Part shown: positions 5,201-27,300 of the stretch, one piece after another
How positions within the stretch are numbered: the first letter of the stretch is position 1
How the letters are laid out: each line of letters begins with the position of its first letter
DNA from: Branchiostoma floridae
Lineage: Eukaryota; Chordata; Leptocardii; Amphioxiformes; Branchiostomatidae
DNA: 64,000 nt
Direction: 5' to 3'
Assembly (NCBI RefSeq): GCF_000003815.2
Contig: NC_049991.1
Coordinates: 667,916-731,915 of the forward strand
Position numbers and translations under genes: made by a program
Notes under the pieces: generated by a model
What the model was told of the DNA's origin: nothing
Seen by the model: only the letters and a program-made list of their open reading frames with translations
The model's database searches: none

Positions 5201-8200
5201 AACATGAATGAAAGAATGAATGTACATCCTTTATCATACTGGATAACTCATAATTAGCTGATCTTCCCAGAAGTCCAATGGTAGGGATTATTATGAGCAA
5301 CATAGAATATGTGACAAGCCAAAGCCAGCCCATTTGCCAGGTGGACAGGATTCTGATGGCGTATCCACATGATTGACAGCTGTCCCCTTTGTCAAACCTC
5401 CTGACTAGTGCCTGGTAGTGTGTGTTAGCTATGGGTGGTCAAACCTGCTGACTAGTGCCCGGTAGTGTGTGTTAGCTATGGGTGGTCAAACCTGCTGACT
5501 AGTGCCTGGTAGTGTGTGCTAGCTATGGGTGGTCAAATCTGCTGACTAGTGCCTGGTAGTGTGTGTTAGCTATGGGTGGTCAAATCTGCTGACTAGTGCC
5601 TGGTAGTGTGTGTTAGCTATGGGTGGTCAAACCTGCTGACTAGTGCCTGGTAGTGTGTGCTAGCTATGGGTGGTCAAACCTGCTGACTAGTGCCTGGTAG
5701 TGTGTGCTAGCTATGGGTGGTCAAATCTGCTGACTAGTGCCTGGTAGTGTGTGTTAGCTATGGGTGGTCAAACCTGCTGACTAGTGCCAGGTAGTGTGCT
5801 AGCTATGGGTGGTCAAACCTGCTGACTAGTGCCTGGTAGTGTGTGTTAGCTATGGGTGGTCAAACCTGCTGACTAGTGCCAGGTAGTGTGCTAGCTATGG
5901 GTGGTCAAACCTGCTGACTAGTGCCTGGTAGTGTGTGTTAGCTATGGGTGGTCAAATCTGCTGACTAGTGCCAGGTAGTGTGTGTTAGCTATGGGTGGTC
6001 AAACCTGCTGACTAGTGCCTGGTAGTGTATGTTAGCTATGGGTGGTCAAACCCTGCTGACCTAGTGCCCTGGTAGTGTGTGTTAGCTATGGGTGGTCAAA
6101 CCTTCTGACCAGTGCCTGGTAGTGTGTGTTAGCTATGGGTGGTCAAACCTGCTGACTAGTGCCTGGTAGTGTGTGTTAGCTATGGGTGGTCAAACCTGCT
6201 GACTAGTGCCAGGTAGTGTGTGTTAGCTATGGGTGGTCAAACCTGCTGACTAGAGCCTGGTAGTGTGTGTTAGATATGTGTGGTCAAACCTTCTGACCAG
6301 TGCCTGGTAGTGTGTGTTAGCTATGGGTGGTCAAACCTGCTGACTAGTGCCTGGTAGTGTGTGTTAGCTATGGGTGGTCAAACCTGCTGACTAGTGCCAG
6401 GTAGTGTGCTAGCTATGGGTGGTCAAACCTGCCGACTAGTGCCTGGTAGTGTGTGTTAGCTATGGGTGGTCAAACCTGCTGACTAGTGCCTGGTAGTGTG
6501 TGCTAGCTATGGGTGGTCAAACCTGCTGACCAGTGCCTGGTAGTGTGTGTTAGCTATGGGTGGTCAAACCTGCTGACTAGTGCCTGGTAGTGTGTGTTAG
6601 CTATGGGTGGTCAAACCTGCTGACTAGTGCCTGGTAGTGTGTGTTAGCTATGGGTGGTCAAACCTTCTGACCAGTGCCTGGTAGTGTGTGTTAGCTATGG
6701 GTGGTCAAACCTGCCGACTAGTGCCTGGTAGTGTGTGTTAGCTACGGGTGGCCAGAGACGCCCATCCAATTATCTGAGCAGCCACATGTTAACTAACAAA
6801 TACTAACCTTGAAAAATGTGGTACCCTTGGCCTTGACTTTGTCTGAGGCCTCTAACTTTTCTTTAGTGTCCATTTGCCAAGACTCCTTCACCTACACAGG
6901 GGAAATATGCTACAATTAGATAAATCTTAAGTATGCTTAGGATAGCTAAATATTACTATAAATACAGGACTGGTAGTTGTTTACTTATTAACACTAGGCA
7001 GTAACTAAGGGAAGTCAGTGCCTAAATTCTGCTTGGAGAGTAGGTAATTGGCCACAGGTTACCATTGGCTACAGGTTGTGTAACACAGGCTACCATTGTG
7101 CAAACAACAACTGATTGAACACCTTCAAGACACACTCCTTCAAGATGGGGGTGTCAATCTACAATTCTGCAGTACCTGAAGATGCTGCTATGGTGCCCAA
7201 AGTTGCCATGTTTAATCAGGACCTCACTAACTACCAACATGCAAAAATTCAAACAAGCCCATCAAAAGGCTCTTGATTTATAGATGGGAACACACAAACA
7301 CAAAGACTTAAAGGGGCATTCCACTCCACACGGGAGTGTTATTTTCCGATAGATATTAATTTTAGAAAGTGATAACTGCATACTACTTTACATTATACGA
7401 TAAAGTACCCAATTCCTCCACGTTCCTCAAAAGCATTCAGTCTTCTACTAAACTCCCCAAGTAACCTCTGATTGAATTAATCCTATGGCTGAATACAATG
7501 CAAAACCTTCAGGTAAGATTACAAAACTAATTTCAGGATTGCTAAGAAATCTCGTCTTGTTATTTTTTTCTTTGCTATCTTATGAAAAATTTACCTTCTC
7601 GGTGTGCTTAGCGATCCTCAATTATTCTGAAAATATGCACGATAAACAAAGTGTCTGTGCCTATAGGGAATGCATGGGTTTAGTGAGTATCATATTGTTT
7701 TACAAAACACANNNNNNNNNNNNNNNNNNNNNNNNNNNNNNNNNNNNNNNNNNNNNNNNNNNNNNNNNNNNNNNNNNNNNNNNNNNNNNNNNNNNNNNNN
7801 NNNNNNNNNNNNNNNNNNNNNNNNNNNNNNNNNNNNNNNNNNNNNNNNNNNNNNNNNNNNNNNNNNNNNNNNNNNNNNNNNNNNNNNNNNNNNNNNNNNN
7901 NNNNNNNNNNNNNNNNNNNNNNNNNNNNNNNNNNNNNNNNNNNNNNNNNNNNNNNNNNNNNNNNNNNNNNNNNNNNNNNNNNNNNNNNNNNNNNNNNNNN
8001 NNNNNNNNNNNNNNNNNNNNNNNNNNNNNNNNNNCAATCAGAGAATAGGCCTTTCTTGGGGCTTGTTGCTGTCGCAAGCTGTTTCGCAAAGGCCGCTGGG
8101 AAGCTATCAGCCAATCATGTTACGTATTACCATGGCTTTGTTTGCTCACCATGCCGACGCCCGATCCCCAACGGCTGACTGCCCATATAAGGGCAAGCTC

Positions 8201-11200: not shown

Positions 11201-12120
11201 CATAACCCATATCTGCTTGGAGATAAGCTAATTACCAAACCCTAAGGTAATCATGGAACAGCATGGAACAGCTGAAAACACGATGTGCACAAAAATCATG
11301 CAACATCTGCTTGACAACATCGAATTACCGCAAGGCCCTAACAGGCAGAGATAACGCAGACCTGGACCAATACTGTATACCTAAGGACGTACATGTGTTG
11401 TAGGAGTGATTTCTGAAATTATTACATTGATTATAAAAATAGCTACTGCAACTGCGTGCAGAGGACATGCCAAATTACATACGAATGCGGCAAATGTAGC
11501 ATACAGATACAGATGCGAACACTCATCATGAATACAAGACTCTGTCGCCGGAGGTTACCCTTCGGTCACAACAATAATAAAAAAAACTGGATGGACCAGG
11601 CCTGAATGACACCAAGGACGTCGTTGATGACACCAACCACATCAAAATTCAAAACAGATTTAACGTCAGAGTAAGAGTGCATTCATGTAACTGTTATATC
11701 TTTATTGCTAATTGTTTAGATTTTATGTGTACTATGAGTGTGCTCATGTGTGTGTGTGTAACATTATGTATGTGTGTTTGTGTCACTTTGTGTGTGTTTG
11801 TCAACTTTGTGCGCATGTGTTACATATGGTCTAGTGGTTAGGATTTGGCGCTCTCACCGCCAAGGCCCGGGTTCGATTCCCGGCGTTTTTGCATAGTGAT
11901 TCGTGCGAATTTCATAATATTCGTGCGTTTTCGCATAGTGATTCGTGTGTATCACATAATATTCGTACGAATTTCATAGGGTTCGTGCAAATGCTTTAAT
12001 AGGCACCCCTGATTATGTATGTGTGTTTGTGTCACTTTGTGTGTGTTTGTCAACTTTGTGCGCATGTGTTACTTCGTGTGCATGTAACATAATAGTGTGT
12101 GAGAGTGTATGTGTGGAATG

Positions 12121-15340: not shown

Positions 15341-18300
15341 CTAGTGAGGTGAGAAAGACAAAGAAAGAAAAAAGGCGAGGGTTAAAAAAGAACAATACTT
15401 CTGAGACCGCATACCTCCGTGAAATTTTTGTGTAAATTTTTTGCTTCATCTTCTCTCATCAAGGTACAATTCCGCCGTTTTCACGGAGTTAGATATAGGA
15501 TAAGTGTAACAGTAACCTTAGAGTCTCCAGTATCCGCGGAGACAGTGTCAAATCCGATCACTTTCACATCACGGTTGTCAACAAGCCACTGGGCGGCATC
15601 TGGGTGCAGTCCCGGAGAGTGCAGAAGGGAGTCGTTCTTTTGGCCCACGCCCAGATACGGCACTGGTCCTTCCTCATAGAACTGCTCACCCCAACCTGAA
15701 CGGACTGCATATTGCACGGGATACAAGTGGTAAGCTTAAGGCTATGGAGATGACTATCGTACCTTGTATGTGTATTATGCTACCTGCTGATGTACGCCTA
15801 CTAGATATCATCAAATGATGACAGTTGCTAAAATACTTGAACATCGCTATCCTTCAAACACACACTACATCCGCAAGCGAAAACAGGTACTAGTACCCAT
15901 TTTTACCCCTGGGTATTCACCTCACCTCACCGATCTCATAGCCTGTAATGTTGGACGCCCGTTTGAGGCACTTGACATGGTCACGTAAAAAAAAGATTAA
16001 AAAATTGCGGTGGGCTAAATCAGGCTGTCAAAGGTGTCCTTGTAATCCCCACGAGTTGTTCTATCTGCCTTGTGAATCTCAAGCGATGGACTTTTACGAG
16101 AAAGTATATATTTGATGTCAAAGTTGACCGATTTTCGACAGCTTTTTCCTATGGTTTCGCCATTGTTTTCAAGCCGAAATACGCACCGTATGGGGGTTTC
16201 GGGGTGTCCGCTTAGTGGGCGAGGTTCAACTGTTTCCGGGTCACGCTATACCGTTGCGGCAGTCACTCGTGACCTCACTCGGTAGTGTACACATTCAAGT
16301 ACTTTTGATGGTGCTGTCAGCGTTTTATCATGTTACGAAGTAATATTGAAATGTCTTTGAAGTATAAGACAGCACTATGATCTGTAAGGTGTTATTCCAA
16401 TAGGTTGCGTCGTGGGTAAAGTGAACTGTAGGTAACGTTACCCGACGAAGGCTTTTTGCATCTGACTGTTAACTGTTGAAGATATTAGATACATTGCTCG
16501 CGCCTGACTGAGGGATTAACTAAGATTAGAACAGTATATAGCTAATTAATAGCGAAAAACGTGTCAGAAGAGAAATGTGNNNNNNNNNNNNNNNNNNNNN
16601 NNNNNNNNNNNNNNNNNNNNNNNNNNNNNNNNNNNNNNNNNNNNNNNNNNNNNNNNNNNNNNNNNNNNNNNNNNNNNNNGTTCAGAAGACAAACTGTGTC
16701 AATTTGAATGACACACTTACAGGTAGCGCAATAAGAAATGTATATAGCAAACTAATAGCGGAAAAAGTGTTCAGGAGACAAACTGTGTCAATTTGAATGA
16801 CACACTTGCAGATAGCGCAATAAGAACTGTATATAGCAAACTAATAGCGGAAAAAGTGTTCAGGAGACAAACTGTGTCAATTTGAATGACACACTTACAG
16901 GTAGCGCAATAAGAAATGTATATAGCTAACTCATAGCGAAGTGTAACGTGATCAGAAGACAAACTGTGTCAATTTGAATGACACACTTGCAGATAGCGCA
17001 ATAAGAACTGTATATAGCAAACNNNNNNNNNNNNNNNNNNNNNNNNNNNNNNNNNNNNNNNNNNNNNNNNNNNNNNNNNNNNNNNNNNNNNNNNNNNNNN
17101 NNNNNNNNNNNNNNNNNNNNNNNNNNNNNNNNNNNNNNNNNNNNNNNNNNNNNNNNNNNNNNNNNNNNNNNNNNNNNNNATATTAAGTGTATATAGCTAA
17201 CTCATAGCGAAAAACGTGTTCAGAAGACAAACTGTGTCATTTGAATGACACACTTACAGGTAGCGCAATAAGAAATGTATATAGCAAACTAATAGCGGAA
17301 AAAGTGTTCAGGAGACAAACTGTGTCATTGTGAATGACACACTTGCAGATAGCGCAATAAGAACTGTATATAGCAAACTAATTGCGGAAAAAGTGTTCAG
17401 AAGACAAACTGTGTCAATTTGAATGACACACTTACAGATAGCGCAATAAGAAATGTATATAGCTAACTCATAGCGAAGTGTAACGTGATCAGAAGACAAA
17501 CTGTGTCAATTTGAATGACACACTTGCAGATAGCGCAATAAGAACTGTATATAGCAAACTGATAGCGGAAAAAGTGTTCAGGAGACAAACTGTGTCAATT
17601 TGAATGACACACTTACAGGTAGCGCAATAAGAAATGTATATAGCTAACTCATAGCGAAGTGTAACGTGATCAGAAGACAAACTGTGTCAATTTGAATGAC
17701 ACACTTGCAGATAGCGCAATAAGAACTGTATATAGCAAACTGATAGCGGAAAAAGTGTTCAGGAGACAAACTGTGTCAATTTGAATGACACACTTGCAGA
17801 TAGCGCAATAAGAACTGTATATAGCAAACTGATAGCGGAAAAAGTGTTCAGGAGACAAACTGTGTCAATTTGAATGACACACTTGCAGATAGCGCAATAA
17901 GAACTGTATATAGCAAACTAATAGCGGAAAAAGTGTTCAGGAGACAAACTGTGTCAATTTGAATGACACACTTGCAGATAGTGCAATAAGAACTGTATAT
18001 AGCAAACTAATAGCGGAAAAAGTGTTCAGAAGACAAACTGTGTCAATTTGAATGACACACTTGCAGATAGTGCAATAAGAACTGTATATAGCAAACTAAT
18101 AGCGGAAAAAGTGTTCAGAAGACAAACTGTGTCAATTTGAATGACACACTTGCAGATAGCGCAATAAGAAATGTACGTAGCAAACTCATAGCGAAGTGTT
18201 ACGTGTTCAGAAGACAAACTGTGTCAATTTGAATGACACACTTACAGGTAGCGCAATAAGAAATGTATATAGCTAACTCATAGCGAAAAACGTGTTCAGA

Positions 18301-21300
18301 AGACAAACTGTGTCAATTTGAATGACACACTTACAGGTAGCGCAATAAGAAATGTATATAGCAAACTAATAGCGGAAAAAGTGTTCAGAAGACAAACTGT
18401 GTCAATTTGAATGACACACTTGCAGATAGCGCAATAAGAACTGTATATAGCAAACTGATAGCGGAAAAAGTGTTCAGGAGACAAACTGTGTCAATTTGAA
18501 TGACACACTTACAGGTAGCGCAATAAGAAATGTATATAGCTAACTCATAGCGAAGTGTAACGTGATCAGAAGACAAACTGTGTCAATTTGAATGACACAC
18601 TTGCAGATAGCGCAATAAGAACTGTATATAGCAAACTGATAGCGGAAAAAGTGTTCAGGAGACAAACTGTGTCAATTTGAATGACACACTTGCAGATAGC
18701 GCAATAAGAACTGTATATAGCAAACTGATAGCGGAAAAAGTGTTCAGGAGACAAACTGTGTCAATTTGAATGACACACTTGCAGATAGCGCAATAAGAAC
18801 TGTATATAGCAAACTAATAGCGGAAAAAGTGTTCAGGAGACAAACTGTGTCAATTTGAATGACACACTTGCTGATAGTGCAATAAGAACTGTATATAGCA
18901 AACTAATAGCGGAAAAAGTGTTCAGAAGACAAACTGTGTCAATTTGAATGACACACTTGCAGATAGCGCAATAAGAAATGTATGTAGCAAACTCATAGCG
19001 AAGTATTACGTGTTCAGAAGACAAACTGTGTCAATTTGAATGACACACTTGCAGGTAGCGCAATAAGAAATGTATATAGCTAACTCATAGCGAAAAACGT
19101 GTTCAGAAGACAAACTGTGTCAATTTGAATGACACACTTGCAGGTAGCGCAATAAGAAATGTATATAGCAAACTAATAGCGGAAAAAGTGTTCAGGAGAC
19201 AAACTGTGTCAATTTGAATGACACACTTGCAGATAGCGCAATAAGAACTGTATATAGCAAACTAATAGCGGAAAAAGTGTTCAGGAGACAAACTGTGTCA
19301 ATTTGAATGACACACTTACAGATAGCGCAATAAGAAATGTATATAGCTAACTCATAGCGAAGTGTAACGTGATCAGAAGACAAACTGTGTCAATTTGAAT
19401 GACACACTTGCAGATAGCGCAATAAGAACTGTATATAGCAAACTGATAGCGGAAAAAGTGTTCAGGAGACAAACTGTGTCAATTTGAATGACACACTTAC
19501 AGGTAGCGCAATAAGAACTGTATATAGCAAACTAATAGCGGTAAAAGTGTTCAGGAGACAAACTGTGTCAATTTGAATGACACACTTACAGGTAGCGGAA
19601 TAAGAAATGTATATAGCAAACTAATAGCGGAAAAAGTGTTCAGGAGACAAACTGTGTCAATTTGAATGACACACTTGCTGATAGCGCAATAAGAACAGTA
19701 TATAGCAGACTAATAGCGGAAAAGGTGTTCAGGAGACAAACTGTGTCAATTTGAATGACACACTTGCAGATAGCGCAATAAGAACTGTATATAGCAAACT
19801 AATAGCGGAAAAAGTGTTCAGAAGACAAACTGTGTCAATTTGAATGACACACTTACAGGTAGCGCAATAAGAAATGTATATAGCTAACTCATAGCGAAGT
19901 GTAACGTGTTCAGAAGACAAACTGTGTCAATTTGAATGACACACTTGCAGATAGCGCAATAAGAACAGTATAAAGCAGACTAATAGCGGAAAAAGTGTTC
20001 AGGAGACAAACTGTGTCAATTTGAATGACACACTTACAGATAGCGCAATAAGAAATGTATATAGCTAACTCATAGCGAAGTGTAACGTGATCAGAAGACA
20101 AACTGTGTCAATTTGAATGACACACTTGCAGATAGCGCAATAAGAACTGTATATAGCAAACTAATAGCGGAAAAAGTGTTCAGAAGACAAACTGTGTCAA
20201 TTTGAATGACACACTTACAGAATAGCGCCGTTAAAACAGTATATAACTAACTTAAAGCGAAAAGTGTATTCAGTAGACTACCTGTGTCAATTTGAATGAC
20301 AGATTTATAGAAAAGTGCTGTAAGAACTGTATATAGCGGAAAACGTGTTCATGGGACAAACTGTGTCAATTTGCATGACATACTCACATTATAGCGCCGT
20401 AAAAACAGTACATAGCTAACCAATTTAAAAAACGTGTTTAGGATACAAAATGTGTCTATGTGAATGACACATTCATAGAACAGCGAGGTAAATTTATTTT
20501 GACGAAAGCTTGCTCTAACAAAACCTTTTTCAATCGGATGATCATACTATTTAATTATCGCTTTACTTTACTTGTGTGTCATATGAATTGACACAGTTGC
20601 CATCCTCACGAAGTTTTCTGTTGTAAAATGGTTATATGCAGTTCTTACAGCGCTTTTCTTTAGGTGTGTCATACAAATTGACACAGTTTTGTGTCCTGAA
20701 CACATTAGCCGTTAAGATTTAGTCATACATTTGTATACTATACGTTCGGCGCTATTCTACAAATGTGTCGAAACAAATCGACACAGCTGTGCTTTTGACT
20801 ACATTTTCAGCAATAAAGTTGTTAGGTACAGCCCAAAGTACACTTTTTACCAGTGTGTCATATAAATTGACACAAATTCTTTACTGTCTTTTTCCGTGAT
20901 CAATTCTACACACGTTAAACAGCGCTTTTCTAATTGTGGGTGATATAGATTGACACAGTTGTCCCCCGGGAAAACGTTTTCCATTTTTAAGACACGGTTC
21001 AAACATCGCTAACAAAGGTGTCAGACAAATTCACACAATTTCCCTCCTGAAAAAGTCGTCCGCCATCAAGACAACTTTACACTGATTTCACATCGTGTTT
21101 CATAGTGTGTCATATGAAATAACAGTTGTCCTCCTGACAAGTTTTTCTGTCATTTGATACAGTTGTCGTCCTGACCGTGAGGGTTTTCCGTTTTGTGAAA
21201 TTTTAATAAGTTAAAAAAACTTGTTAATTGACACAGTTGTCGTCCCGACCAAGTCTTCCATCAGTTTAATACTGTTTAATCATCGCACTAGTGTGCCATA

Positions 21301-24300
21301 CTATCAGTGACAGTTGTCCACCAAAGTTTCCGTCATGAGGCAGTTTTATACTGTTTAACACTCGGTTATTAATTGCAAAGCCGTCCTCCTGACAAAGTTT
21401 TCTGTTATAAACTATTGTGTCAATTAATGTGACAAATTAGCAGACTGAATAGATATGCCTAAATCGTATAATCATTCGATTGAAAAAGTTTTCGGCAGAG
21501 CGAGTTTTCCGTCATAAGATAGTTATTATGCGTTTCAAAAGTGTGTCATATGATTGACACAGTTTTCAGCTCAGACAGCGCAGTACTAGATTTGACAGTT
21601 TACTTGAACAAGTTAGTATTTCAGTTACTTTAAACCCTACCATGGTCCAAACTCCAGTAATCAGTTGTTAATTGCTATGAAATAACCGCATCTAAAGTCA
21701 TGTATATACGAAGGAACGCCATTTAGTTCGTAAGAAGGGGCCTTAGAACTTGTCTGACACACTTGCAGAAAAGCGCTGCCTGAACCACGCTATTATATAA
21801 GTGTGTCATTCATATTGACACAGTTTGACTTCTGAACACGCATTAATATTCCGCTTTAAGTTAGCTATATACAGTTCTTACGGCGCTATTATGTAAGTGT
21901 GTCATTCAAATTGACACAGTTTGTCTCCTGAATACGTTTTCGGTATTAGTTTGTTATATACAGTTATTTGGGCGCTGTCTACAAGTGTGTCATTCAAATT
22001 GACACAGTTTGACATTTGAACACGCATTGCGCTTTAAGTTAGCTATATACAGTTCTTACAGCGCTGTTCTATGAATGCATCATTCAAATTGACACAATTT
22101 GTCTCCTGAACACCCTTTTTCGCTATTAGTTAGCTATATAAAGTTCATTCAGCTTTGTTCTGTAAGTGTGTCATTCAAATTGGCACAGTTTGACACCTGA
22201 ATACGTTTTCCGCGATTTCTTAGCTATATACAGGTCTTACATTGCTGTTCTATAAATGTGTCATTCAAAGTGAAACATTTTGTCTCCTGAACACGTTTCT
22301 CGCTATTAGTGAGCTATACACAGTTCTTACGGCGCTATTATGTCAGTGTGTCATTCAAATTGACATAGTTTGTCTCCTGAACACGTTTACGCTCCTAGTT
22401 AGCTATATACAGTTCTTACGGCACTATCATGTAAGTGTGTCATTCAAATTGACACAGTTTGACTCCTGAACACGTTTTCCGCTATTAGTTAGCTATATAC
22501 AGTTCTTTTAGCTTTGTTCTATAAGTGTGTCATTCAAATTGACACAGTTTGACATTTGAACACGCATTCCGCTTTAAGTTAACTATATACAGTTCTTACA
22601 GCGCTATTCTATAATGCATTGTGTCATTCAAATTGACACAGTTTGTCTCCTGAATACGTTTTCGCTATTAGTTTGCTATATACAGTTCTTTGGGCGCTGT
22701 CTACAAGTGTGTCATTCAAATTAACACAGATTGACATTTGAACACGCATTCCGCTTCAAGTTAACTATATACAGTNNNNNNNNNNNNNNNNNNNNNNNNN
22801 NNNNNNNNNNNNNNNNNNNNNNNNNNNNNNNNNNNNNNNNNNNNNNNNNNNNNNNNNNNNNNNNNNNNNNNNNNNNNNNNNNNNNNNNNNNNNNNNNNNN
22901 NNNNNNNNNNNNNNNNNNNNNNNNNNNNNNNNNNNNNNNNNNNNNNNNNNNNNNNNNNNNNNNNNNNNNNNNNNNNNNNNNNNNNNNNNNNNNNNNNNNN
23001 NNNNNNNNNNNNNNNNNNNNNNNNNNNNNNNNNNNNNNNNNNNNNNNNNNNNNNNNNNNNNNNNNNNNNNNNNNNNNNNNNNNNNNNNNNNNNNNNNNNN
23101 NNNNNNTCCTGGACACGTTTCTCGCTATTTGTTAGCTACATACAGTTCTTACGGCGCTATTATGTAAGTGCGCCATTCAAATTGACATAGTTTGTCTCCT
23201 AAACACGTTTATCGCTATTAGTTAAGCTACATACAGTTCTTACGGCGCTATTATGTAATGTAACAGTGGTGTTCAAGGACTGCTTAACCGAAGACGCCTA
23301 ACGGCTTAAGCCTTTTGGCCGAACGGTTTGCACGTTCGATTTGTGATCCGGCTGCCCGGGTTCGGCGCGGGTTCGAATCCCGGGATTCGGGGTGTTGTTT
23401 CTTTCTGTTCTTACTCGCCCCTCTGGTTGTTTCAGTAAGTGTGTCATTCAAATTGACACAGTTTGTCTCCCCAAGGAGGTCTCCCGAACACGTTTTCCGC
23501 TATTAGTTCCCTGTATACACTTCTTACAGCACTGTTCTATAAATGTGTTATTCAAATTAACACAGTTTGTCTCCTGATGTCTACGAGAATGCCAGTAACT
23601 TAGTTCGTTCGGAAGGGACCTTACAACCGTTGCAGATTCGCAACGTGGGCCGAGACGATACGAACATACACAAACTTAAAAAACGTTCTGCAAGTTCAAA
23701 CATACTTTCGCCAAGAGTCCCTTAACAAACCTAATTTAACAATATGCGTAAGCCTGACTTGAATCCTCCTCTACCGAACCTAGCGCAGATTGAGACCGTC
23801 AAGATACCTGGTGGCCCGCGTTCCATGACCTCACTCGTACGACCCGGAAGTATATGATCGTAATCGGTTGCACGGAAACCCCCATGTAGTGCGAAATCGA
23901 GGCCGAAAACAGGCATAAAGAGCCAGTTTGAAGGCTAACTTTGACTCTTCAAATCTCATCCCGAAATAATATTTGAATCAACACGAGTACTGTAGGCGAT
24001 AGAACAACTCGTGGGGATTACGTGGGTACCTTTGACAGCCTGATTTGGGCCACCGCGATTTTTTAATCTTTTTTTTACGCGACCATGTCAAGTGCCTCAA
24101 ACGGGCGTCCAACAGTAAGTGTAAAGTGCCCATCATAAGGATACAACGTCTCGCCAGGAACGGTAGGAATCAAACCCGCGACCTCTCGATCTCGCGTCCG
24201 CCAACTCGGCCATTCGACGTTTCTTACCCTACTCAATTCATCTCAAATACCTACTACAATACAATACTGTGCATCAAGTTTGAAATAAGAACATTGCACC

Positions 24301-27300
24301 TTGACTGTACTGATTGTAAAACATTGATGGGAGACTTACGCATGATAATGCCACCTTCTGGGATATGCCCATATTCTCGTTCCCAGTCCTGTAAGTCTTG
24401 CGCCGTGACGGCGTAGTCCGTGTTGTCTCCTATCCTATCCCTCACGTCAATCATCACTCCAGGGCCGGTCAGGTGGCCGAGCGGGATCTGGTCAACTGGG
24501 GATGGAATCAGCGCACTTAGTTATAATTATATGTTCTACTTGAAAATTGTACGAAAGGCTATCTACAGCATTTGTCTAGTAGGGAATTGGACATACTAGT
24601 AACTAGTGACTAGTACTAGTAACTAGTGACTAGTAAATTGTACAATTACAATAAGAGGAATATCCAAAAGACCATTATACTATTTTGGTTTTGTATATAC
24701 TTGTATAACGTTATGAATAACGCTAGTAACCAATATCCGTTGTGTTAAAAACGGTATTAATATATATTTTGAGTATCTTTTATGTGTTAAAAATATTTGC
24801 AACCACGACAGTTTAGCTAAGAGTAAATCGTTTTGTATGACGACCGGAAAAAAAACATAGCCTGAGTACCATCCTCCGTAGTGACCGCTGGCTCACTATT
24901 TTCGCTTGCTAACCACCGTACGGTCCGCCGAGTTTTTTTAAAGAACGGATATATGTTACCCCATGGATAAAGGTGAAGAAGCGTTAACTCACGTCTCCAA
25001 GCTCCTCTCGCGAAATGTGCGGGCGCGTCTATGTGAGTCCCGGTGTGCTCGTTCATGGCGATCTCGTTAGACTCCAAGTAGTAGCCTCCAGGATGGTCAT
25101 CTCTGTATCAAACACACGGCGGTTTTATTCGTTTGGTTGGTGTCAAGGTCACCTCTGTATCAAACACACGGCGGTTTTAGTCGTTTGGTTGGTGTCAAGG
25201 TCACCTCTGTATCAAACACACGGCGGTTTTAGTCGTTTGGTTGGTGTCAAGGTCACCTCTGTATCAAACACACGGCGGTTTTAGTCATTTGGTTGGTGTC
25301 AAGGTCACCTCTGTATCAAACACACGGCGGTTTTAGTCGTTTGGTTGGTGTCAAGGTCACCTCTGTATCAAACACACGGCGGTTTTAGTCGTTTGGTTGG
25401 TGTCAAGGTCACCTCTGTATCAAACACACGGCGGTTTTAGTCGTTTGGTTGGTGTCAAGGTCACCTCTGTATCAAACACACGGCGGTTTTAGTCATTTGG
25501 TTGGTGTCAAGGTTACCTTTTATCAAACAAACGGGGAAGGAGGCTAGGACAAACTACTATCTTTTGTGGTATCTTTTGTACCATAGAATTTCATCCATGG
25601 CACTTTTGTCACGCTGATGTATTGTGCTTACCTGTAAACAATAGTGAACTGGTAGGGAGGGAAGAATGGATGAACAGGAATGCCAGCCTTCAGGGTCCAT
25701 GTCAGGTCGATCAGACGAGGCACAGATTGTCCCCAACAACCAAGAAGGAGTCCAGACGTTATCTGTGTAAATGTGTGAATAATATTCGCGAATATTTTTC
25801 ATTAAGTTGGTATATGAGATTTTATTAAGCAGGGTTGCTTGACAGTATCTATGCAATACTTTTGAGACCGCATTCTACAACAGCGACTCCTAACTAGAAC
25901 TGCGCGGTGCGGGGTAGAACCAGTCATTATTGTTCAGAGGAAGGCGACAGACGGTCACAGAAATTTAACGTCTTGGTTTGTGAATGAGGAACCTTGTCAT
26001 TCTGTGGGAATGATAGTTTTGCGTAAAATATCTTATTGGGACTCTAAAACTGACAGGCGGAAAGGTTTTCACCAATATTTCAGTACCTGGGACGGACGCC
26101 TTTGTTTTTATTATCTGTGCCTTTGCGGGTGAGCAAAAATAATGTGTCGGGGTTTGAGACTGCTTAAGAGCACCACCTGGCGTTATGTGGCGACACTTGC
26201 AAGTGAAATGTATTGATTCATCAAAATACGTCCAAAACGCCTCCTCATGTCACAATATCGACACAGTGAAACAACGCCACAGCTCTATACCTAACGTTAC
26301 GTCATTTTAAGGTCATCGCTAAACGATACTATATACGGGTTGTCACATCTGGGTAAGGAGCGCTCCCGGTGCCAGCCATATGGGGAGGACAGGCCGGGGA
26401 GAGTAGGCCGGGGAGAGGGGGCCAGACTGTACCATTGTACCTGTAGGGAAAGAAAGTACAGCATTATTGCAATCACTTCTATGTCCTCTCAAACACATTT
26501 CTGGCAAACATGGGTACTAGTACCTGTTTTCGCTTGCGGATGTAGTGTGTGTTTGAAGGATAGCGATGTTCAAGTATTTTAGCAACTGCCATCTTGACAT
26601 TATCTGTGAAGATCTTTGCTACAGTCCTGCATATTTTGCATAGTGATCCACGTAGAGACATTTGTGCCGAACCACCTGATATGGAACGCACGGCAGAGAC
26701 GGCAAATTAATCATAAAGTGGTTTCCTATATTGTGAATACGCTGCTAGATGTTCGAAGTTCCAATACACGCCGACCCAGAAGAAGTTTATTCTAACAGCG
26801 CGTAATGCGAAACAGCGCGAGAGTGTCTCTAAGCTTCAAATCGACGTTTGATTCTGTGCCCCCGGGCAACTTAACCCCAAGTATAGAAGAAGATATCCAA
26901 TTTTGCGGTCTTCTTTACCCCCTATATAGACAAGACGAAGTCGACTATCCATGGTGCTGCATTCTGTGTCCGAATGGACTCTACTGACTTCCATCGCCTG
27001 TACAGAGATTCCTGCTAAGACCTGGTGATACAGATCAAGAATAGGGCCAAACACACCATTTATAGTTAGCGGAGACAGGATCCACCATGGCTACAACAGC
27101 TGCATTACGTTATCTAGAAACATGATAAACAGTGGCTGGGAGTACCAGGCAGATACCTACAAGTTACAAAATCTAACAGATTGCAAAATACGGAATGAAT
27201 GTTTAGCGTACTTGAATCTAAATACCAGTGATGGGAAATTCAAGACGTTATGTTGAACAAAGGGGTTCTTTATGGTACTCTGCACAGAAGCAGCGTTGAC

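Follow-up and report, generated by a model that had tools for sequence, protein, structure and literature searches.

A stretch of 64,000 nucleotides from the lancelet Branchiostoma floridae (hereafter, the window; C13:667916-731915 in the contig labels used below) carries, from position 15949 to position 24114, a mobile unit which starts with TGTTGG and ends with CCAACA and whose reality has been confirmed. This element appears to be a non-autonomous, recently active fold-back transposon bounded by terminal inverted repeats (TIRs), whose putative transposase would be placed by a factor sitting on YY1-type sites, most likely YY1 itself; we assign to this reading a probability of about 0.6. An animal DNA transposon would then probably dock on the host protein YY1 and insert base-exactly at a point 11 bp beyond the site bound by this protein, and would do so with either of its two ends. 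The targets of animal DNA transposons are usually held to be set by open chromatin or by short motifs which are duplicated and, to our knowledge, such landing precision is not known for any of these transposons. If this reading is true, the family would represent a natural transcription factor-addressed cut-and-paste system. Since YY1 is conserved, cells of other animals could be used to test such a transposase, and the question of how transposons read host factors would become directly testable. After ProtoRAG, this would also be the second case in which a lancelet transposon is linked to YY1.

The evidence which carries this proposal is a YY1-type motif located outside the element at a fixed distance from the insertion, which the preliminary description of this DNA had missed. 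The motif was first noticed by eye, as ATGG at 19 bp in 9 of 29 flanks (28 left ends and one right end), and was then tested on right flanks collected afterwards, in which it appears mirrored, as CCGCCATnTTG, with the T placed at +19. One flank or both could be used at 36 loci (a copy at C341:1 was dropped, its flank being unreadable). ATGG lies exactly 19 bp from one element end in 25 of them, which is the constant spacing between factor site and insertion expected of factor-guided integration, and on both sides in none. These 25 occurrences come from 64 usable flanks of 60 bp, in which ATGG is otherwise found eight times. The binomial probability of ATGG at offset 19 is ~2e-49 before correction, and the reversed CCAT occurs in at most two loci at any offset. 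The motif adjoins the left end eight times and the right end 17 times (the flank at C13:1931971 being counted as right). Its polarity is constant: it points at the element, and either TIR may adjoin it.

Part of such a pattern might be expected if insertion simply followed the chromatin of YY1-bound promoters, through its openness or the phasing of its nucleosomes, with no physical contact, as YY1-type sites are common in promoters. This explanation is very improbable: ATGG occurs in at most one locus at any offset other than 19, and chromatin alone would not set a spacing to the single base. An offset from a transcription-factor site which is exact to the base points to direct contact of the moving machine with the DNA-bound factor. 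That the motif is an accident, the copies having inserted into one repeated sequence or having been duplicated together with their flanks, has already been refuted. At least two sites do lie in repeats, but the flanks are unrelated, an all-against-all comparison of 29 flanks of 1.5 kb returning one 57-bp match and that of short flanks one 16-bp match. The ATG of the motif was also considered as a start-codon target and rejected as a rule: of the 22 sites which could be joined, 18 have a stop in this frame within the 75-135 bp covered and four keep it open throughout.

When aligned, the motif-side flanks read CCAAnATGGCGGC at -24 to -12, four of these letters being given beforehand by the selection of the sites for ATGG. 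The motif is followed by 11 nearly uninformative bases which include the duplicated four, the 19 bp from the A of ATGG to the element being made of the motif from that A onward, a 7-bp spacer and the 4-bp duplicated target. The flanks opposite the motif exhibit no aligned signal. This logo is the reverse complement of the YY1 consensus, including its tolerant position; the consensus, GCCATCTTG / CGCCATNTT, is reported to be bound by lancelet YY1 (PMC7481187). YY1 is the simplest candidate for the putative docking protein. The genome contains a YY1 gene (C1:4608481-4609159), whose zinc fingers are 96-97% identical to those of the human protein.

The motif is found in 19 of 21 loci with an exact target duplication and in 21 of 25 with a duplication of any grade. 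Two diverged copies (C17:9083747 and C13:1931971) also have it at 19, the latter without duplication. Empty sites, a check proposed in the preliminary description, were sought with joined flanks, complete for four sites and largely so for a fifth. They were found for three sites within the same genome, but the window and C14 sites returned no empty copy with their joined flanks. At C158, one empty relative (83% identity) has the motif beside a single ATAA, so that the motif was most likely present before the element arrived. For C139, there are five empty relatives (90-91% identity), which read ATACGGC or ATACAGC in place of ATATGGC at the occupied site, as if only the ATGG-bearing copy had been hit; in this single case, the sequence may also have changed after the element inserted. 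The third site, C8:23608451, lies within another repeat, at least 25 copies of which continue through the junction at 97-99% identity; three of them read identical over 82 bp across the junction if 5 bp are counted as duplicated.

Based on these data, a mechanism can be proposed in which the putative transposase, supplied in trans and probably of the integrase type, would cut at the TG..CA ends of the element. YY1 bound to CCAAnATGGCGGC would dock the transposase-DNA complex like a jig, the cut would be made at a set distance, and insertion would proceed with a 4-bp, sometimes 5-bp, stagger. Contact between a targeting factor and the transposition machine is known from Tn7-like bacterial systems. 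The positioning would be analogous to the placing of Ty3 by TFIIIB, through which the Ty3 integrase is reported to be positioned with extreme precision (PMC8632968). YY1 has been reported to interact with retroviral integrases and to guide integration of the murine leukemia virus (Inayoshi 2010, as cited in PMC4062949). In the available text of two further papers, YY1 is mentioned only in silencing and in enhancers of long terminal repeats (LTRs) (PMC8621569; PMC2642719). Among the papers listed for YY1 and transposon targets, for YY1 and integrases and for amphioxus repeats, none describes this element or a YY1-aimed DNA transposon.

The main rival is a putative transposase which itself reads CCAAnATGGCGG through its own DNA-binding domain and cuts at a constant offset without any role of YY1, the likeness to the YY1 site being convergent or borrowed. 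A single DNA-reading enzyme would also give a base-exact spacing, and this explanation retains a real if clearly smaller chance. It is disfavored by the logo, which fits YY1 down to the tolerant position in AAnATGG and to the CGGC tail. A carried YY1-like domain is also unlikely: among the best 150 of 3691 candidate matches to the YY1 zinc fingers, no near relative besides YY1 itself and no transposon-borne YY1-like zinc-finger protein was seen, the further matches listed being C2H2 stretches with 42-60% identity.

Several observations weigh against the docking on YY1. ATGG at 19 is missing in 11 of the 36 loci. Five of these have one usable flank only (C5:4262536, C341:10001, C7, C12:20352867 and C16:19073222) and two have no duplication (C2:27209158 and C13:16485801, which has lost its right terminus). 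Among the others, C12:4552248 has ATGGCAG at 20 instead of 19, C8:3365509 has GTGGC at 19, C8:23608451 has ATGCCGC at 19 if one extra base is set aside, and C6:24893249 has no motif at all. Of three further ends outside the 36-locus set, C9:913436 has no motif at 19, and C11:8074823 lacks it on the only flank seen. At C16:19087173, the motif is perfect but placed at 14, an offset which may be explained by a 5-bp loss. The window's own motif is weak (ATGGGC, on the right side). When the full consensus is scored, using a consensus derived from the very flanks scored, the best match falls at 19 in only 18 of the 36, which do not include the window. At the genome scale, AAnATGGCGG-N12-TGT is found at 326 places versus 661 for a reversed-pattern control; a YY1-type site 19 bp before TGT is thus common, and a single case such as that of the window proves nothing alone. 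Lastly, a word search of the available text of a two-hybrid paper on murine leukemia virus integrase partners found no mention of YY1 (PMC2481268).

The pattern CCAACA-N14-GCCATNTTG occurs at 20 places versus one for the control, and nine of them belong to this transposon family. The remaining 11 were considered as other families with the same end and spacing and rejected, since they resemble neither the TIR, as judged by eye, nor one another; their excess over the control is unexplained. Among the AAnATGGCGG-N12-TGT matches listed, AATATGGCGGAAAGCCGTTTACTGT or one-base variants of it recur many times at C1:15938055-15955653 and C2:16613981-16624019, often ~1.8 kb apart, and represent another repeat which contains a YY1-type site.

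The family to which the element belongs is readily recognized by its ends. The terminal 22-mer, with up to three mismatches, is found at 68 places in the 513-Mb genome (control, one) and the terminal 32-mer, under the same tolerance, at 65 (control, zero); within the window, the terminal 21-mer occurs twice with zero expected. Nearly all the ends read begin at the identical base beside differing flanking DNA. Further copies with the same ends and 4-bp duplications, which the preliminary description had predicted for a genuine mobile unit, therefore exist. Both flanks are present at 28 loci, where the duplication is exact and 4 bp long in 19, exact and 5 bp long in two, carries a mismatch in four and is absent in three; at C11:6699608, the right junction is shifted by two bases, the end reading TATTGG. 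The precise GTAA duplication of the window copy is one such 4-bp duplication, but GTAA itself is not a preferred target, as it is found at only 2 of the 25 loci with a duplication and the other duplicated sequences differ. TG..CA ends and a 4-5-bp duplication would suit an integrase-type enzyme.

Copies differ by a median of 1.5% in pairwise comparisons over their first 590 bp (29 copies) and 21 cores by a median of 1.7%, which indicates that the family moved recently; the window and C10 copies have zero substitutions in these first 590 bp. The 30 two-ended copies span 3.9-17.2 kb (median, 7.7 kb), a range to which gaps and nested insertions contribute. The 17.2-kb copy (C12:10871606-10888829) owes ~7.5 kb to an insertion close to the left end, apparently accompanied by a 6-bp duplication. 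Diverged relatives, with cores ~76% alike, are also present in the genome. A repeat found at C4:25923000-25926500 (twice, 1.8 kb apart) and at C9:913236-918235 carries a relic of the right end with ~85% identity, and eight right-end places, two of them in C4:25923000-25926500, have one common flank. On contig C341:1-10001, one copy begins at the first base and an opposite left end lies 1.6 kb beyond its right end with N between them, possibly reflecting nested copies or an assembly join.

The organization of the window copy (Table 1) is that of a fold-back element of the FB type, i.e., with long inverted arms of tandem repeats. The two TIRs are 92.6% identical (93% over 120 bp in a second comparison), and their likeness ends at 122 and 121 bp, respectively; together with the GTAA on both sides, they bear out the defined unit proposed in the preliminary description. 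Its claim that both arms consist of the same tandem repeat in opposite orientation likewise holds, the unit being 89-90 bp long with ~35 copies at 17188-20337 and ~11 diverged, inverted copies at 21788-22775. The left arm displays a weak higher-order period of ~9 units. That the whole 8.2 kb could fold on itself is only partly sustained: the arms are inverted, but the structure is not a perfect hairpin since the subterminal ~450 bp differ between the left and right ends beyond the TIRs and the inverted arm stretches pair at only ~78-87% (a top entry at 91% was set aside, its alignment crossing runs of N). Arm lengths are uncertain because of three assembly gaps, at 16580-16679 (before the left arm), 17023-17179 (inside it) and 22776-23106 (inside the right arm). 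The right arm is also broken at ~23259-23435, where ~177 bp with a tRNA-like look (GGTTCGAATCCCGGG), missing in the diverged relative L110, are probably a nested insertion related to short interspersed nuclear elements; the right end of the element including this segment has no match in Rfam. The left subterminal region recurs at 26 other places with 94-100% identity over approximately the full 501-bp query (among the best 40 of 62 candidates), and the core, whole or partial, at no fewer than 30 places including the window with 95-100% identity (among the best 40 of 95 candidates).

Table 1. Features of the fold-back element and its target site in the window.
Feature	Position	Strand	Remarks
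Left target duplication	15945..15948	none	GTAA
Left TIR	15949..16070	+	122 bp, starts TGTTGGACGCCC; same end at 68 genome places
Left subterminal region	16071..16560	+	Neither satellite nor inverted-repeated
Left arm	16680..20337	+	89/92-bp satellite, 21-bp palindrome TGTGTC-N9-GACACA per unit
Core	20338..21787	+	Diverged, palindrome-bearing
Right arm	21788..23570	-	Left-arm satellite inverted, more diverged (78-80% matches)
Right subterminal region	23571..23993	+	
Right TIR	23994..24114	-	121 bp, ends CCAACA
Right target duplication	24115..24118	none	GTAA
YY1-type motif outside the element	24126..24138	-	ATGG core 24130-24133, far base 19 bp from the element

The palindrome of the satellite unit is found, with a spacer of 7-11 and up to two substitutions, at 62 places in the element versus ~1 expected after single-base shuffling. 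When the window core is compared with the diverged relatives L110 and L111, the palindrome arms are 89-100% identical and the remainder 66-84% (five alignment rows covering palindromes, some of them overlapping); within one element, such a test is biased, as the units were chosen by the motif. The comparison suggests that the palindromes are a protein-bound site, and those repeated along the arms might serve as binding sites for the transposase or for a host protein. A comparison with phage records returned no match.

No gene for a transposase was recognized within the family. In the window element, open reading frames of at least 60 amino acids are satellite, short or filled with gap letters, with no transposase seen; a 123-amino-acid frame extends from within the right TIR to the DNA outside the element, and four frames tested against Pfam matched no family at an E-value of 0.01. 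The parts of copies examined comprised ~1.6 kb of the left end for most of 29 copies, the core with 1.5 kb on either side for 30 pieces, and the window copy, L110 and L111 as a whole. Therein, the sole in-element frame of at least 180 amino acids belongs to a nested long interspersed nuclear element (LINE), and neither a transposase, nor a gypsy-type integrase with GPY/F, nor the autonomous relative with the same ends envisaged in the preliminary description was found. The LINE, which encodes an endonuclease and a reverse transcriptase, is nested at C16:19073740-19076739 in a 14-kb copy; this copy was rejected as an autonomous element, the 3 kb read being occupied by the LINE. The two most distant ends, C9:913436 and C11:8074823, were likewise rejected as autonomous partners, 5 kb at each containing no transposase-like frame by eye.

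In the whole genome, the integrase core family has 135 matches, many of them in frames of more than 900 amino acids as expected of retroelements. Some 18 matches, all covering one part of the profile, lie in frames of 387-426 amino acids (C15:3691545, C17:10006214, C3:33332880, C16:2187574, C158:1554165, C9:16357640, C12:5279363 and ~11 more). This group is a possible integrase-only DNA transposon and may offer a lead for an autonomous partner. Another integrase-core match, C1:5565900, in a frame of 1232 amino acids, lies ~8.4 kb inward of the right end C1:5574549, for which no left end was found, and is probably a retroelement.

The element might also belong to Ginger1 or Ginger2 as a non-autonomous member, its movement depending on a Ginger integrase of the lancelet, an assignment of class which is compatible with the proposed targeting. 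Both groups have a known transposase, that of Ginger2 being a DDE transposase of the Tdd type, and have been reported from B. floridae (PMC2836005). The element resembles them in its TGTTG end, which fits TGTNR, in its 4-bp duplication and in its 122-bp TIR, which falls within the 40-270 bp given for Ginger1 and the 50-180 bp also given (PMC2836005); the ~18 integrase-core frames could be added in favor. The Ginger-like character noted in the preliminary description thus extends to the end and the duplication length but not to the target sequences. Ginger1 duplicates CCGG/CCGT and Ginger2 prefers RTATAY (PMC2836005), but none of the 25 loci with a duplication has CCGG, CCGT/ACGG or TATA. In addition, none of the 68 ends lies at the ~18 integrase-core places, and satellite arms are unmentioned for Ginger in the available text (PMC2836005). 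Overall, this assignment seems doubtful. IS481EU elements likewise end in TGT..ACA, and some of their families duplicate 4 bp (5 bp in one instance); in contrast to the present family, they are from parabasalid protists, with TIRs mostly <50 bp and also 15-16-bp duplications (PMC10045372).

With Drosophila FB and Galileo, the element has in common the fold-back build and repeat-filled arms, and this part of the likeness drawn in the preliminary description stands. FB and Galileo are in or near the P-element group and have 7-9-bp duplications, unlike the 4-5-bp duplication and TGTTGG ends found here. Tetris, a foldback transposon of Drosophila virilis, is similarly non-autonomous and TIR-bounded, with tandem repeats in inverted arms and modular forms (PMC4079207). 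It differs by its host and its ~220-bp unit, and the available text mentions no fixed-distance target motif for it (PMC4079207).

With respect to targeting, Ty3 at RNA polymerase III genes is likewise positioned with high precision relative to a transcription-factor site (PMC8632968), the present case relying on sequence evidence. Unlike this element, Ty3 is an LTR retrotransposon, uses TFIIIB rather than YY1 and has a solved structure (PMC8632968). ProtoRAG is, like this element, a lancelet DNA transposon, and its activity involves host YY1; in ProtoRAG, the element is regulated by YY1 bound within its TIR at GCCATCTTG (PMC7481187), whereas the motif of the present family lies in target DNA, beyond the ends of the element. 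The CACTATG terminal heptamer and 5-bp duplication of ProtoRAG/Transib are also at variance with the TGTTGG ends and mostly 4-bp duplication of the present family.

Elsewhere in the window, a tRNA-Glu (CTC) was predicted by ARAGORN at 11822-11892, with an Rfam tRNA match at 11827-11883. Two other tandem arrays are present, one at 5391-6751 with a 47-bp unit (29 copies, 94%) and one at 25095-25534 with a 52-bp unit (8.5 copies, 97%).

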